Under the pieces are notes generated by a model that was not told the origin of the DNA, did not search any database, and was given only the letters and a program-made list of their open reading frames with translations. A program made the translations under genes and the position numbers. From Tanticharoenia sakaeratensis NBRC 103193 (GTDB taxonomy: Bacteria; Pseudomonadota; Alphaproteobacteria; Acetobacterales; Acetobacteraceae): 64,000 bases of DNA. The stretch spans positions 124,001-188,000 of the forward strand of contig NZ_BALE01000048.1 of NCBI RefSeq assembly GCF_000963885.1, given 5' to 3'. How positions within the stretch are numbered: the stretch's first letter is position 1; every line of letters starts with the position of its first letter. This document shows, piece after piece, positions 12,749-20,216 of the stretch.

Positions 12749-13054
12749 GTGCGCCAATATGACCATCCTGCTCCCGAGACCCTGGCCATGACGGAAGTGC
12801 TGCGCGCGCTCTCCGATCCGTTGCGTCTTGCGATCGTGCGGCGGCTCGACCGTGAAGGCGCGCAGACCTGCGCGGCCCTGATCGGAGAACGTCCGAAATC
12901 CAGCATGTCGCATCACTTTCAGGTCCTGCGCGATGCCGGCGTCATCCACACCCGGATCGAGGGCGTCACGCACTACAACACAGTGCGCCGTGACGTGCTC
13001 GACACCCGGTTTCCGGGCCTGATGGACGCGATTCTTATCGCTCGCGCGGATTGA
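12749..13054 (+). CDS. ArsR-family winged-helix regulator
   Basis: A 101-residue regulator starting at GTG 12749, with GAGGA 9 nt upstream. It has LRALSDPLRLAIVRRL at the N-terminus and a recognition region SSMSHHFQVLRDAGVIHTRI followed by the wing. Only one Cys (TCAALIG) is seen and there is no metal-binding ELCVCDL motif, so it probably senses an organic electrophile or oxidation instead of a metal. It is divergent from the ene-reductase and probably represses it. Its 3' end overlaps the convergent tspO by 20 bp. Confidence 0.92.
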   Translation: MRQYDHPAPETLAMTEVLRALSDPLRLAIVRRLDREGAQTCAALIGERPKSSMSHHFQVLRDAGVIHTRIEGVTHYNTVRRDVLDTRFPGLMDAILIARAD

Positions 13055-13526
13055 GACGCACGATCTCTTCCTGAAGCAGGGTCGCGAACAGGAGCCACGC
13101 CAACATCGGCAGCATCGCAAGGGCCGCGCGACGATCGACCTTAGCCGCGCTCCACATCGCGCCCGTCGTGGTGACGATCAGGCCGACCGCCACACCCAGT
13201 GCCCCGACCACACTTTTTTCGCGAAACATCACCCACGGGTATCCGCCGATCCCGGCGACACTCAGGGACCAGGCGATCAGGGCGCGCTCCCGTGCCTGGG
13301 AACACGGCGCCTGCAGGAGCCGATATCCGGCATAGCCGACCAATGAGTCGATCGCCGTCCATACGATTCCATAAACCGGCGGCGGGGGAGAAAAGGATGG
13401 CTTCTCCAGGGAGCGATACCAGCGCAGGGTTTTCGGCCGATCCGGGTGCGGTGCTCCGCGCGCTCCCAGATATTGCGCGCCCAGCACGGCGGAGACGGCC
13501 GTAAACGCGGCCAGAGTCTGTCTCAT
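13035..13526 (-). CDS. tspO: TspO/MBR family tryptophan-rich sensory protein
   Basis: A 163-residue, five-helix membrane protein with the family motif WYRSLEKPSFSPPPPVYG and IVWTAIDSLVGYAGYRL, and a central GYPWVMF. TspO proteins bind porphyrins and other tetrapyrroles and influence stress and photosynthetic gene expression. The ATG at 13526 is used; the frame extends upstream without coding character. It tail-overlaps the ArsR gene and lies 40 bp downstream of a small membrane protein gene on the same strand. Confidence 0.92.
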   Translation of the reverse strand: MRQTLAAFTAVSAVLGAQYLGARGAPHPDRPKTLRWYRSLEKPSFSPPPPVYGIVWTAIDSLVGYAGYRLLQAPCSQARERALIAWSLSVAGIGGYPWVMFREKSVVGALGVAVGLIVTTTGAMWSAAKVDRRAALAMLPMLAWLLFATLLQEEIVRLNPRER

Positions 13527-13566
13527 TCCAAAGCCCCCAGTTGTCCTTGGAATAAGGAACGGATGC

Positions 13567-13938
13567 TCAGGGCGCGGGTTGCAGCATAAGCGTCGCCACG
13601 ATCCGCCTGGCATCCGGGTTCCAGATCACGAGCTGCTCACGCCCGACGGCTTCGATCAGGATTGCCAGTGTCCCGTCCTGCCGTGCCGTGACGGATGCGA
13701 TCCGTGCGCCCGAAGGCACTGGCAGTGTCGTCTCGAGCGGCATGCCGGACGAAGCAGCCGGTCCGGACACGGCGGTGGTCGTGGCCGCCGAGATGGCTGC
13801 CGGAGGTGACGACATGCGATGGATCAGGATGCCGGCCAGCGCGGCGACGCCAAGCACGATCGCGACCCCCATGCCGATGACGGCGGCGATCAACGCGCGC
13901 GGAACCGTGGCGAAGGCGGAGGGAGCGGTTTCGGACAT
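13567..13938 (-). CDS. Small single-span membrane protein (possibly DUF6476)
   Basis: A 123-residue protein with a cytoplasmic N-terminus, one membrane segment (ALIAAVIGMGVAIVLGVA), an Ala/Ser/Thr-rich linker and a small C-terminal domain ending QLVIWNPDARRIVATL. It starts 45 bp from the divergent pseudouridine synthase gene. Short proteins of this architecture next to an RluA-type gene and rpoH occur in other alphaproteobacteria, from memory under DUF6476. No function is known. Confidence 0.75.
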   Translation of the reverse strand: MSETAPSAFATVPRALIAAVIGMGVAIVLGVAALAGILIHRMSSPPAAISAATTTAVSGPAASSGMPLETTLPVPSGARIASVTARQDGTLAILIEAVGREQLVIWNPDARRIVATLMLQPAP

Positions 13939-15250: not shown

Positions 15251-16141
15251 ATGGCCTCTTCTGCCGCTATTTCGGTGGGTCCCGAGAGCAACCTGACCCG
15301 CTATCTGCAAGAGATCCGCAAGTTCCCGCTGCTGTCGCCGCAGGAGGAACTCGATCTGTCCCGCGCGTGGCGCGACCGCGAGGACACCGCTGCCGCGCAC
15401 AAGCTCGTCACCTCCCATCTCCGTCTCGTGGCCAAGATCGCCATGGGCTATCGCGGATATGGCCTGCCGGTCAGCGAACTGATCAGCGAAGGCAATATCG
15501 GCATGATGCAGGCCGTGCGCCGGTTCGATCCCGATCGCGGTTTCCGTCTTGCGACCTATGCGATGTGGTGGATCCGTGCTGCGATGCAGGAATACATCCT
15601 GCACAGCTGGTCGCTGGTGAAGATGGGCACGACCGCCGCACAGAAGAAGCTCTTCTTCAATCTGCGCCGCCTGAAGGGCCAGATGCAGGCGATCGACGAT
15701 GGCGATCTCAAGCCCGAGCAGGTCGATAAGATTGCGACCACGCTTGGCGTCAATGAGAGCGACGTCGTGTCCATGAATCGCCGGCTTGCGGCGCCCGATC
15801 ATAGCCTGAACGCGCCTCTGCGCGTGGATGGCGAGGGCGAATGGCAGGACTGGCTGGTCGACGAGCACGAGAATCAGGAAGAGGCTTTTGCCGAATCCGA
15901 GGAATTCTCGGGCCGCAAAGCGCTGCTGACCGAAGCGCTCGAGACGCTGAACCCGCGCGAGCGCAACATCCTGACGGAGCGTCGTCTGAAGGACGAACCG
16001 TCGACGCTCGAGGATTTGTCGCACCATTACGGTGTATCGCGCGAGCGCGTGCGTCAGATCGAGGCGCGGGCCTTCGAGAAGCTGCAGAAGGCGATGGCGG
16101 CTTCGGTCGCTCAGCGCCGCGCGGCCTCGGCGGCATCCTGA
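15251..16141 (+). CDS. rpoH: RNA polymerase heat-shock sigma factor RpoH
   Basis: A 296-residue sigma-32 with the RpoH-specific box QKKLFFNLR (131-139), region 2 (LRLVAKIAMGYRGYG, FRLATYAMWWIRA) and region 4 helix-turn-helix (LSHHYGVSRERVRQIE). It directs transcription of chaperone and protease genes. AAGGAG lies about 8 nt before the ATG. A leader of about 200 nt separates promoter and start, which leaves room for translational control, and a strong terminator hairpin follows 6 bp after the stop. Confidence 0.97.
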   Translation: MASSAAISVGPESNLTRYLQEIRKFPLLSPQEELDLSRAWRDREDTAAAHKLVTSHLRLVAKIAMGYRGYGLPVSELISEGNIGMMQAVRRFDPDRGFRLATYAMWWIRAAMQEYILHSWSLVKMGTTAAQKKLFFNLRRLKGQMQAIDDGDLKPEQVDKIATTLGVNESDVVSMNRRLAAPDHSLNAPLRVDGEGEWQDWLVDEHENQEEAFAESEEFSGRKALLTEALETLNPRERNILTERRLKDEPSTLEDLSHHYGVSRERVRQIEARAFEKLQKAMAASVAQRRAASAAS

Positions 16142-16182: not shown

Positions 16183-16653
16183 TTATGTCGGTTCGGCCGG
16201 AGCGGCCTCCGGCTCGGGTATCTGCCACTCCGCCCGTAACATGCGGGCCTCTTCCATCAGTCGCGCGGCCTGAGCCTTGCGTGCACGCAGGTGCACGAGG
16301 CGAAGCGCCATGGTTGCCAGATCCACGATCACCCAAGCCGAAGCACCCGCGAGATAGACCGCGCAGAGCGATCTGACGTCAGTCAGCATGGCGCGCCCCG
16401 TCGCCCAGTCTCCGCCCTCAAGCCACAAGGCATGAAGAGGGTGCAACGCGACCGCCAGCACGAAGAACAGCGCCGGCATGGCCGCCGACTCGCCTACATC
16501 GGGTCGCAGCGCATAAATCACCAGCACAGGCGCGAGATAGGCCAGCGACACGAGGCTGTATGCCGGAAATACCACCAGCACGATGGCAAGACCGATCACC
16601 TGCCACCATTTGACGGTTGCCAGGGCCTTAGAGGTTACGGTCGCGCCGGTCAT
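16183..16653 (-). CDS. Small multi-span membrane protein coupled to the pseudokinase
   Basis: A 156-residue protein with about four hydrophobic segments (WWQVIGLAIVLVVFPAYSL; AYLAPVLVIYAL; MPALFFVLAVALHP; CAVYLAGASAWVIVDLATMA) and a charged cytoplasmic tail RKAQAARLMEEARMLRAEW. Its ATG overlaps the stop of the upstream pseudokinase gene (4 bp), so the two are probably made together and may interact at the membrane. I do not recognise the family. Confidence 0.8.
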   Translation of the reverse strand: MTGATVTSKALATVKWWQVIGLAIVLVVFPAYSLVSLAYLAPVLVIYALRPDVGESAAMPALFFVLAVALHPLHALWLEGGDWATGRAMLTDVRSLCAVYLAGASAWVIVDLATMALRLVHLRARKAQAARLMEEARMLRAEWQIPEPEAAPAEPT

Positions 16654-18635
16654 CGGATGAATTCAAGCCAGCAGCCGACGAGTGCTGCGACGATGCCGCT
16701 CGTCAGCGCCAGGAAATTGCCGGTTTCCCGAAATCGCGCCTCGGCACTTGGCGCCTGCGTCTCCAGAGATTCCAGGGCATCGTTGATTCGCGCGATCGCG
16801 TCGATCGCACCTGTCGCCCCGGCCGCATCGCGCGCCAGCGCATCCGGGTCTTCGATCAGTCCGATCATGCGCTCCAAATCGCCACGGGCTGCGGCCTGCT
16901 GCACCTGCCCGCGGCGCGTCTTCTGCGTGGACAGGCTGCGCCAGACGGTCAGCCGGGACAACGCATCGGGCAGCAGACGTGCCGCAATGGCGGGCAGTGG
17001 CCCCGTGCCGAAACGGGTCTGCATGCCGGCCAGGAGACTGAGATCCGCAAGCCATGTCGGCAATGCCGCGCGCTGGGCGTGAGACAGGACGGGAATGGCG
17101 CGCCGCTGGATATTGCTGTCGAAGAAGATGCGCATCGCGGCATCGAGCAGGCCGGATTGCCCGACCTGCTCGGATGTCGGCAACTTGGACCCATCCAGCC
17201 AGACGAGCAGCGCCTGCGGCTGCGCGATCCGCGCCTTCGCACATCGGGGCGAGAGACACGGCAGAAACGGATTTTCGTCGAACGGCAGACGCAAGACCCG
17301 GTCACGCCCGCGCGCAACCGAACGTCGTGCCAGATGGACGAGCGCCATGATCTGCCGCGCGATGGCAGGCGGCGTTCCGCGCTGGAACGAGTCCCCGTTC
17401 GTCACGAGATAGGACAGGATCGACGTGAGCTGATGCTCCTCCGTATTCGGATCCGTCCGGCCCGCCAGTGCATGGGAAAGCTGCGCATAGGCCAGCATCG
17501 TGGGCAGGGCTTCGGGCCAGAACCAGCGACCGCCGAGGAAGAGCGGGGCCGCCGGGTCGAGCACGTTGATGATACGCGAGAGCATGGGGGTCGCACTGTC
17601 GCTCGACTTGGTCAGGCCCGCAGCACTCGACAGCGTCATGTCCGACACCACGTGCTCGATCGCATGCACGAGACCGCCCATTTCCAGCTCCCGCTGGAGC
17701 CAGCGTGCAATCACCCTGCGCTGCATCAGGGCCGAAAATGCCGTAGGCTCCCGTGCTGCATGCCAGGCAAGGGCACGGACCGTCCGCACCTTCGCCGGTC
17801 CCACGGAAAGCGGCAGGCGCGCGTGGATATCCGGCGGTGTCGAGAAGACCGTGCGCTGCGAGACATTGACCAGATCGTTGGGCGAAGGCCGCAGGTCCGG
17901 ATCGTCGGACAGGAGGGCTGCAATCAGCGTCGACAGCGCGCTCGGCAACGGGTGCCCGTCGGTATAGGCGAGAAAACTGCCCGTCTCGAAACGCCTTTGC
18001 AGGATCTCGTCGTCCGACAGCCCCGCAAGAGGCTGTCGTCCCAGCACGAGAGACAGGATCAGCACGCCAAGCGAGAACATGTCGCAGGCAATGGTCCCCG
18101 CACCGCGTCCGATCGGCTGACAGACAGCCGAGGACAACGGCTCGAACAGGACCGGCTGATGCAGCGCCGGCGGCGTCAGGCCCAGGGGACCGAGAATGAG
18201 CTGATGAGAGCCGGGAACGCAGAACACGTTGTCCGGCCGGATGGCGCGCGCGGTGAGCCCGGTTCGCTCGAGAAGCTGCAGCAGGCCCGCGAAGGGCCTG
18301 ACGACCCCTTCGATGACGTGATTCTCGCGCCATGGCGAAAATCCTTCGGCAAGGGCCGCCGGCCCCGGCGGTCCATTGCAGATGGCCCATAGCGCACCAC
18401 CCTGAATGTCCTGAACGATGATCGGCATCAGGGCCGGATGACGCAGCGCCGCGAAATCCTGAAAGTCCGGCGGGGGCATGACCGGCGCGAGACCCAGAAG
18501 GGCAGCGCCCGGGGCCAGCGTATCGGCGGCGCGATAGGCCGGACAGCCCGACAGCATCGGCTGGGATGTGCGCAGATCGATCAGGTAATGGCCCCCGATC
18601 GTCAGTCTCGTGTTGTCGGCCGTCGAACCCGACAT
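16650..18635 (-). CDS. Membrane-anchored serine/threonine pseudokinase-like protein
   Basis: A 661-residue protein whose first 250 or so residues follow a Hanks-type kinase fold. RAIRPDNVFCV (130-140) stands where HRDxKPxN belongs, ACDMFSLGVLIL (183-194) matches subdomain IX, and a YxAPE-like turn precedes it. The glycine-rich loop, the VAIK lysine, the catalytic Asp of HRD and the DFG Asp are not visible, so it is probably catalytically dead. A large helical region follows, and a single membrane span (FLALTSGIVAALVGCWLEF) ends the protein, leaving the kinase-like domain in the cytoplasm. The role is unknown and perhaps scaffolding. It is coupled to a small membrane protein downstream. Confidence 0.8.
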   Translation of the reverse strand: MSGSTADNTRLTIGGHYLIDLRTSQPMLSGCPAYRAADTLAPGAALLGLAPVMPPPDFQDFAALRHPALMPIIVQDIQGGALWAICNGPPGPAALAEGFSPWRENHVIEGVVRPFAGLLQLLERTGLTARAIRPDNVFCVPGSHQLILGPLGLTPPALHQPVLFEPLSSAVCQPIGRGAGTIACDMFSLGVLILSLVLGRQPLAGLSDDEILQRRFETGSFLAYTDGHPLPSALSTLIAALLSDDPDLRPSPNDLVNVSQRTVFSTPPDIHARLPLSVGPAKVRTVRALAWHAAREPTAFSALMQRRVIARWLQRELEMGGLVHAIEHVVSDMTLSSAAGLTKSSDSATPMLSRIINVLDPAAPLFLGGRWFWPEALPTMLAYAQLSHALAGRTDPNTEEHQLTSILSYLVTNGDSFQRGTPPAIARQIMALVHLARRSVARGRDRVLRLPFDENPFLPCLSPRCAKARIAQPQALLVWLDGSKLPTSEQVGQSGLLDAAMRIFFDSNIQRRAIPVLSHAQRAALPTWLADLSLLAGMQTRFGTGPLPAIAARLLPDALSRLTVWRSLSTQKTRRGQVQQAAARGDLERMIGLIEDPDALARDAAGATGAIDAIARINDALESLETQAPSAEARFRETGNFLALTSGIVAALVGCWLEFIR

Positions 18636-18926: not shown

Positions 18927-20216
<1,290 letters not shown>

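Follow-up and report, generated by a model that had tools for sequence, protein, structure and literature searches.

The described system most similar to the one analysed here is EssB/YukC, the pseudokinase of type VIIb secretion, reported not to bind ATP in vitro (PMC9600267). It joins a cytoplasmic Hanks-like head, in which the VAIK, catalytic and metal motifs are degraded, to a single membrane span, and a contact between the span and a polytopic membrane partner has been suggested (PMC9600267). Other bacterial pseudokinases are the subject of a review, which treats the ActPs1-3, GLW, CP1, DYD and DLHK families; in the GLW family, found in proteobacteria, the HRD motif is replaced by GLW (PMC12599244).

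A gene pair of similar design, as judged here from sequence and structural models, is located in the window, i.e. the whole analysed stretch of 64,000 nucleotides of Tanticharoenia sakaeratensis. The first gene (16650..18635, minus strand) was defined by its open reading frame, family alignment and an AF2 model, and encodes a protein of 661 aa, hereafter PK, predicted to be a pseudokinase with a C-terminal membrane span. The second (16183..16653, minus strand), defined by its open reading frame, its family alignment and its homologs beside PK, encodes a putative multi-span membrane protein of 156 aa, hereafter PM. The overlap of the two genes, noticed in the preliminary description, holds: both frames are present on the minus strand and share the four bases ATGA (16650..16653, minus strand; spacing -4), which contain the PK stop and the PM start. 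Upstream of PK, on the same strand, lie purA (18927..20216, minus strand) and hisZ, while rpoH (15251..16141, plus strand) is convergent and located downstream of PM; purA and rpoH were assigned by gene calls and by their annotated equivalents in Azospirillum thermophilum. In that species the same order, hisZ-purA-PK-PM-rpoH, is found, with DEW08_RS23880 as PK and DEW08_RS23885 as PM. Elsewhere in the window, a gene at 13035-13613 (minus strand) encodes another small membrane protein, putatively of the TspO/MBR family.

Sequence searches provide a faint kinase signal for PK: the Pfam Pkinase model matches residues 181-257 of the window protein (6.4e-5, under the family cut-off), and the NCBIfam matches, LanL and MAD6, are confined to the kinase domain and fall far under the cut-off. 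The structural model is clearer. An AF2 prediction, based on an alignment of 25 relatives (pLDDT 90.3, pTM 0.85), shows a kinase fold and matches PDB kinases over residues about 6-263, with a best Z of 22.8 over 245 residues; Z is at least 8 in 1000 of 1000 re-aligned PDB chains, and ranges from 20.8 to 22.8 in the best 50 entries listed. The kinase layout read from the letters of the sequence is therefore confirmed by the very structure prediction that had been proposed as its check, and a pseudokinase domain may be placed at residues 10-263 (17847..18608, minus strand). None of the features which define an active Hanks-type Ser/Thr kinase, i.e. the beta3 Lys, the HRD Asp and the DFG motif, is found in the window protein, just as had been reported: the beta3-Lys column is occupied by Leu, HRD by A-R-A (residues 129-131) and DFG by P-L-G. 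The catalytic-loop Asn (N136) is present, closing the degenerate loop A-R-A-I-R-P-D-N (residues 129-136; 18228..18251, minus strand).

The same losses characterize the whole family. Column counts were obtained from 113 unique family members from the fetched loci, with gapped cells excluded (n=109 or 107). The HRD Asp is found in 1 of 109 proteins, being replaced by Ala in 70, Ser in 15, Gly in 9 and Asn in 8; the lone member which has HRD (L018) has no catalytic-loop Asn. The beta3-Lys is found in 0 of 107, its column being mostly Leu/Val/Ile (Leu 54, Val 27), and the DFG Asp in 21 of 109, with a complete D-F-G in 0 of those 21. In contrast to these changes, the scaffold is kept: Q160, D185 and R249 are 100% conserved, G190 is conserved at 94%, and the catalytic-loop Asn is found in 104 of 109 members. 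D185, G190 and R249, which are presumably kinase-core residues, align with residues common to catalytically complete relatives. The catalytic loop reads mostly H-R-[ASGN]-I-R-x-x-N, with His in 101 of the 109 sequences at the first position of HRD, Arg in 90 and Gly in 16 at the second, and Ala, Ser, Gly or Asn in 102 at the third. Because the scaffold is conserved while the chemistry is gone, the family is not a decaying one, and its reading as a set of pseudogenes was ruled out by the class-wide constraint on residues. One PK gene (L176, in G591:C110) is spread over two open frames, of 282 and 493 aa, and may have been disrupted or shifted in frame.

The residues listed above predict that PK has no phosphotransfer activity. 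In motif the family differs from the GLW pseudokinases, the one family of the review whose motif was compared with PK: ARA is found in the window protein and mostly H-R-[ASGN] in its relatives, in place of GLW, and the accessible part of the review mentions no partner gene for GLW, whereas PK has PM (PMC12599244).

Kinase folds may also support other reactions. SelO, which performs AMPylation, is one example, and SidJ, described as catalysing glutamylation, is another. An atypical enzyme, with some other chemistry retained or gained, might thus be proposed on the basis of six residues, Asn136, Q160, E165, R177, G178 and G180, conserved at 92-100%; the last five are specific to the family and fall at the place of the activation segment, by sequence order alone. 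Since the HRD Asp is changed to small residues, the beta3-Lys mostly to Leu/Val/Ile, and the DFG Asp persists in 21 of 109 members, the usual set of metal- and phosphate-binding residues is not conserved, and we regard such an enzyme as improbable.

Relatives with intact catalytic residues exist outside the family. Matches to PK over 100 bits were found in 8 of 299 Pseudomonadota genomes, all eight of the same class. Three further genomes, from other proteobacterial classes (G331, G555 and G570; loci L171-L173), encode kinases in which HRD, DFG and beta3-Lys are intact and in which the W/L-rich helical repeats of PK come after the kinase domain; catalytic residues distinguish the two groups, and the repeats, which constitute an unnamed kinase-associated repeat domain, unite them. 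As to the C-terminal end, one of the three proteins (L173) lacks any hydrophobic segment reaching 1.3, another (L171) has two hydrophobic stretches near the C terminus, after an extra domain, and the third (L172) runs off its contig, leaving that end uncovered. As L171 shows, hydrophobic segments close to the C terminus are not exclusive to the group without catalytic residues. PM was not found in the three genomes by a search run with no positive control, two of the three genomes being 57-67% complete. The simplest history suggested by these sequences is that, at the base of the alphaproteobacterial PK family, the chemistry was lost, and the terminal span and the PM partner became fixed.

The C-terminal part of PK was modelled separately (residues 268-661; pLDDT 89.5, pTM 0.77). 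The model shows two beta-hairpin/helix modules, further helices, and a terminal helix of 64 residues. The helical domain preceding the latter (residues 268-596; 16848..17834, minus strand) has no clear counterpart in the PDB: 0 of 198 Foldseek matches reach E <= 0.001, and the best VIA match has a Z of 5.3, over 58 residues. As helical repeats match loosely, these values do not prove that the fold is new. Designed armadillo proteins were retrieved by searching PDB sequences with the profile of this domain, at E values down to 1e-8; the matches involve short parts of the profile, nearly all of them lacking a stretch which passes on its own, and were discarded as an effect of composition. A frame of 1211 aa in another genome (L175, in G503) matches the repeats only (profile positions 260-397), and the module may therefore occur in other architectures.

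The protein ends in a hydrophobic segment (residues 638-661; 16653..16724, minus strand), identified by hydropathy at the end of the predicted helix 597-660. In the window the last 24 residues reach a KD19 of 1.93; a segment of at least 1.3 is found within the final 50 residues in 104 of 104 PKs of 600 aa or more, and one of at least 1.6 in 102. In the window protein, a segment within the kinase lobe (starts 178-182) is equally hydrophobic (2.04), and a span cannot be proven by hydropathy alone for this reason. The case for it is made by its position, since in all 104 proteins it occupies the same terminal place, closing a long predicted helix; these data agree with the membrane span predicted in the preliminary description.

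With these features, the comparison with YukC may be made precise. A degraded Hanks-like head and one span are common to both proteins, and the suggested contact with a polytopic partner has its likely parallel in PM. Unlike PK, which stops at the span, YukC continues with an extracellular domain; a helical domain of 330 residues separates head and long helix in PK, in a further difference from YukC; and YukC belongs to a secretion operon of Firmicutes, whereas the window PK lies by purA and rpoH (PMC9600267). Genes of type VIIb secretion are not named among the 23 features of one annotated Azospirillum thermophilum locus, and EssB is absent from the best 60 sequence matches and the 50 fold matches listed for PK.

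The window PM is divergent: it is only 12-32% identical to the other 46 members of a 47-member alignment, in which P42 is invariant and L139 and W143 are found in 90% or more of the sequences. The latter two residues delimit a conserved C-tail motif, L-x-x-E-W (residues 139-143; 16225..16239, minus strand). The mean hydropathy profile of the 47 proteins shows a hydrophobic stretch of 30 residues, at about 15-45, which could be long enough for a hairpin, followed by segments near 57-75 and 92-113; positive charge is concentrated in a lysine-rich N terminus, in the 46-56 loop, and in a basic C-tail containing LxxEWG. This pattern is compatible with spans even in number and with a cytoplasmic location of both ends. 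The four spans attributed to PM in the preliminary description are plausible. The absence of a known family, also part of that description, stands: no Pfam or NCBIfam family covers the 47 proteins, the stray matches being limited to one to three members each (best E 0.0028 and 0.00038, respectively), and the best E obtained with the PM profile against PDB sequences was 0.1. As far as searched, PM would constitute a family of its own.

Profile searches of one set of 289 alphaproteobacterial genomes detected PK in 99 and PM in 101, with both in 99 of the 99 PK genomes. Presence of PK was defined as a profile match over 80 bits; some match was found in 116 of the 289 genomes, and the 17 with only a weak one are taken to contain ordinary kinases. 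PM matches at E <= 0.001 were found in 104 genomes, of which three (G039, G044, G178), with matches near 22 bits and without PK, were dropped. PM unaccompanied by PK is thus limited to two MAGs, 84% and 75% complete. In one genome with a PM match and no full PK (G027), the PM frame begins at the margin of the retrieved sequence, and a contig end may explain the missing gene. As most of the sequences behind the PM profile are neighbours of PK, its matches lean towards such neighbours. The profiles reach further than single sequences: the window PK finds 27 of 60 relatives and the window PM 16 of 60, their own genome being counted in both.

Linkage is tight as well. PM lies directly downstream of PK, on the same strand, in 103 of 113 matches, where fragments are counted separately and the extra piece of one frame-split copy (G132) is excluded; of the other ten, two are fragments and two lie at contig ends, three belong to unlinked pairs and three are second copies. 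Our own gene calls, made by a simple script which missed at least one PM, found an adjacent PM for 40 of 43 PK copies in 41 loci, the 41st being recovered by profile (L117). In addition, the PK gene of another genome of the same family as the window's (G020) retrieved 39 loci, including Acetobacteraceae and Rhodospirillales records: PM is beside PK in 31. Of the eight loci without it, five retain fewer than 200 bases; among the remaining three, two resemble the G020 and G002 genes, where PM was found. Conserved co-occurrence, proposed in the preliminary description as a check, is hence borne out, and its conservation across the class indicates that the pair is not a chance arrangement.

Departures from the standard layout were also inspected. 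Tandem PK-PM-PK-PM units occur at two loci (L127 and L133), and in three genomes (G254; G206, 69% complete; G066, 63% complete) PK and PM are both present and lie apart. Second-copy PKs of three genomes (G131, G170 and G271; L139, L140 and L170) have no adjacent PM and keep the C-terminal span; each is divergent from a small gene which, by eye, resembles one for a glyoxalase/VOC protein. In G049 and G182 there are three PM paralogs each with no PK beside them, including those at L155, L156, L158 and L160; at L155, the genes preceding PM look, by eye, like those of a response regulator and of a large sensor protein. The neighbours of the PM paralogs and of the second PK copies, read mostly by eye, revealed no common theme.

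PK and PM also diverge together. At the 33 loci where all four genes needed for the comparison are available, tree distances of PK and PM are correlated (0.79), and their partial rank correlation is 0.72 given purA, while the controls give 0.29 for PK-hisZ and 0.22 for PM-hisZ, also given purA. In 300 random subsamples of 60%, the difference between PK-PM and either control stays above zero throughout the 5-95% range (0.15-0.69 and 0.24-0.70); at loci with two pairs, the highest-scoring PK and the highest-scoring PM were used, perhaps from different pairs. Correlations of this kind can also arise from shared lineage-specific acceleration.

Taken from sequences and models, the picture is that of a kinase-fold protein which has lost the residues for catalysis throughout the family, keeps its core fixed, and co-occurs and co-diverges with PM. 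PK and PM are probably two subunits of one inner-membrane complex, acting without phosphotransfer. They might instead be independent membrane-associated proteins, which are merely co-transcribed, as the occurrence of PM paralogs without PK and of PK copies without PM would allow; co-occurrence in 99 of 99 genomes, retention of both genes when unlinked, duplication as a unit, and excess co-divergence make this very unlikely.

Within the proposed complex, the C-terminal span of PK would pack against PM in the membrane, and the long helix and the helical-repeat domain would position the kinase-like head on the cytoplasmic side. The PM tail, with its LxxEWG motif, might touch PK or a third protein. 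By analogy with what has been proposed for EssB/YukC, the head could provide a docking surface, or an allosteric switch, for a cytoplasmic client.

Clues to the process served by the pair were sought in its surroundings. The recurrent neighbours at the 41 loci are purA, hisZ, rpoH and others, some carrying no identification. The order hisZ-purA-PK-PM-rpoH recurs (of 41 loci, 25 have a purA cluster, 22 hisZ and 18 rpoH), as would be expected if PK-PM regulated PurA, HisZ or RpoH; the pair relocates jointly, however, and many copies adjoin other genes, which leaves little probability for such a regulator.

A possible link with the flagellum emerged from gene content. PK-PM may be an accessory of flagellum or motility, which assembles, places or regulates a (polar) flagellum. 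FlhA-family matches are found in 89 of the 99 genomes with PK and in 77 of the 190 without (odds ratio 13, p 4e-17, phylogeny uncontrolled); for PhaC, taken as a control trait, the corresponding counts are 76 of 99 and 111 of 190 (odds ratio 2.4, p 0.002). Within the family of the window's organism the FlhA figures are 18 of 19 genomes with PK and 12 of 20 without (p 0.02), but the latter become 12 of 17 when three added genomes are left out (p 0.08). A match to FlhF was rejected as a marker, being found in 287 of 289 genomes, presumably through cross-matching of related SRP GTPases; flhF was for this reason counted only within 3.5 kb of flhA, where it occurs in 52 of 85 genomes with PK versus 24 of 65 without, among the matches listed (p 0.005, post hoc). 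At one locus (G066) PK directly follows flgI, a rod-binding gene, a flgN-like gene (below cut-off), flgK and an unnamed gene, and at another (G168) PK-PM-PK-PM is followed by flhA. These are, however, two cases among the 46 PK loci gene-called (41 plus five), a rate which may be near that of chance proximity, and purA is instead beside or near PK in 25 of 41. Moreover, FlhA is absent from 10 of the 99 PK genomes, six of them 95% complete or better, while 77 genomes have FlhA and no PK. Of the 166 genomes counted for FlhA, no more than 148 score above the family cut-off, and the protein has injectisome relatives. Given the PK genomes without FlhA, the FlhA genomes without PK and the uncorrected phylogeny, we consider a flagellar accessory possible, though rather unlikely; a motility-linked role is nonetheless the leading guess for PK-PM, and a weakly supported one.

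The genome of the window encodes, in addition to the canonical FlhA on contig C91, a second divergent full-length match to the family (G000:C60:13906-15948; 579 bits, below cut-off), possibly part of a second export apparatus of flagellar or injectisome type.

The pair had been presented as not belonging to a described system, and no description of it was found in Pfam, NCBIfam, PDB sequences or the paper listings and opening lines of abstracts searched, which leave out most subscription papers; the family searches included 25 PKs and 47 PMs for Pfam, and the window PK and 47 PMs for NCBIfam. The analysis adds to what had been noticed the spread of the pair across the class, the unassigned helical domain of PK, the relatives which share its repeats and have a complete catalytic set, and the cases in which the pair is duplicated or unlinked. 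It also affects current annotation. In two Azospirillum records, including that of A. thermophilum, where the same pair is found in the same order, PK is named 'serine/threonine protein kinase' and PM 'hypothetical protein'. As the missing residues make activity unlikely, the kinase name, carried by at least two Azospirillum genes of the PK family, is a likely misannotation.

As a broader and doubtful proposal, PK and PM may constitute an undescribed, class-wide two-protein membrane machine. It would have arisen when an active kinase with the repeats lost its chemistry, came to terminate in a membrane span and was tied to a new family of multi-span partners, and it would control a process in the envelope of swimming cells, the likeliest being how the flagellum is assembled or placed. 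Some hundred PK members can be aligned, PM is present in every one of the 99 PK genomes, and catalytically complete relatives and homologs in Azospirillum are available, so that the loss of kinase chemistry and the association with a membrane partner can be studied directly in this family.
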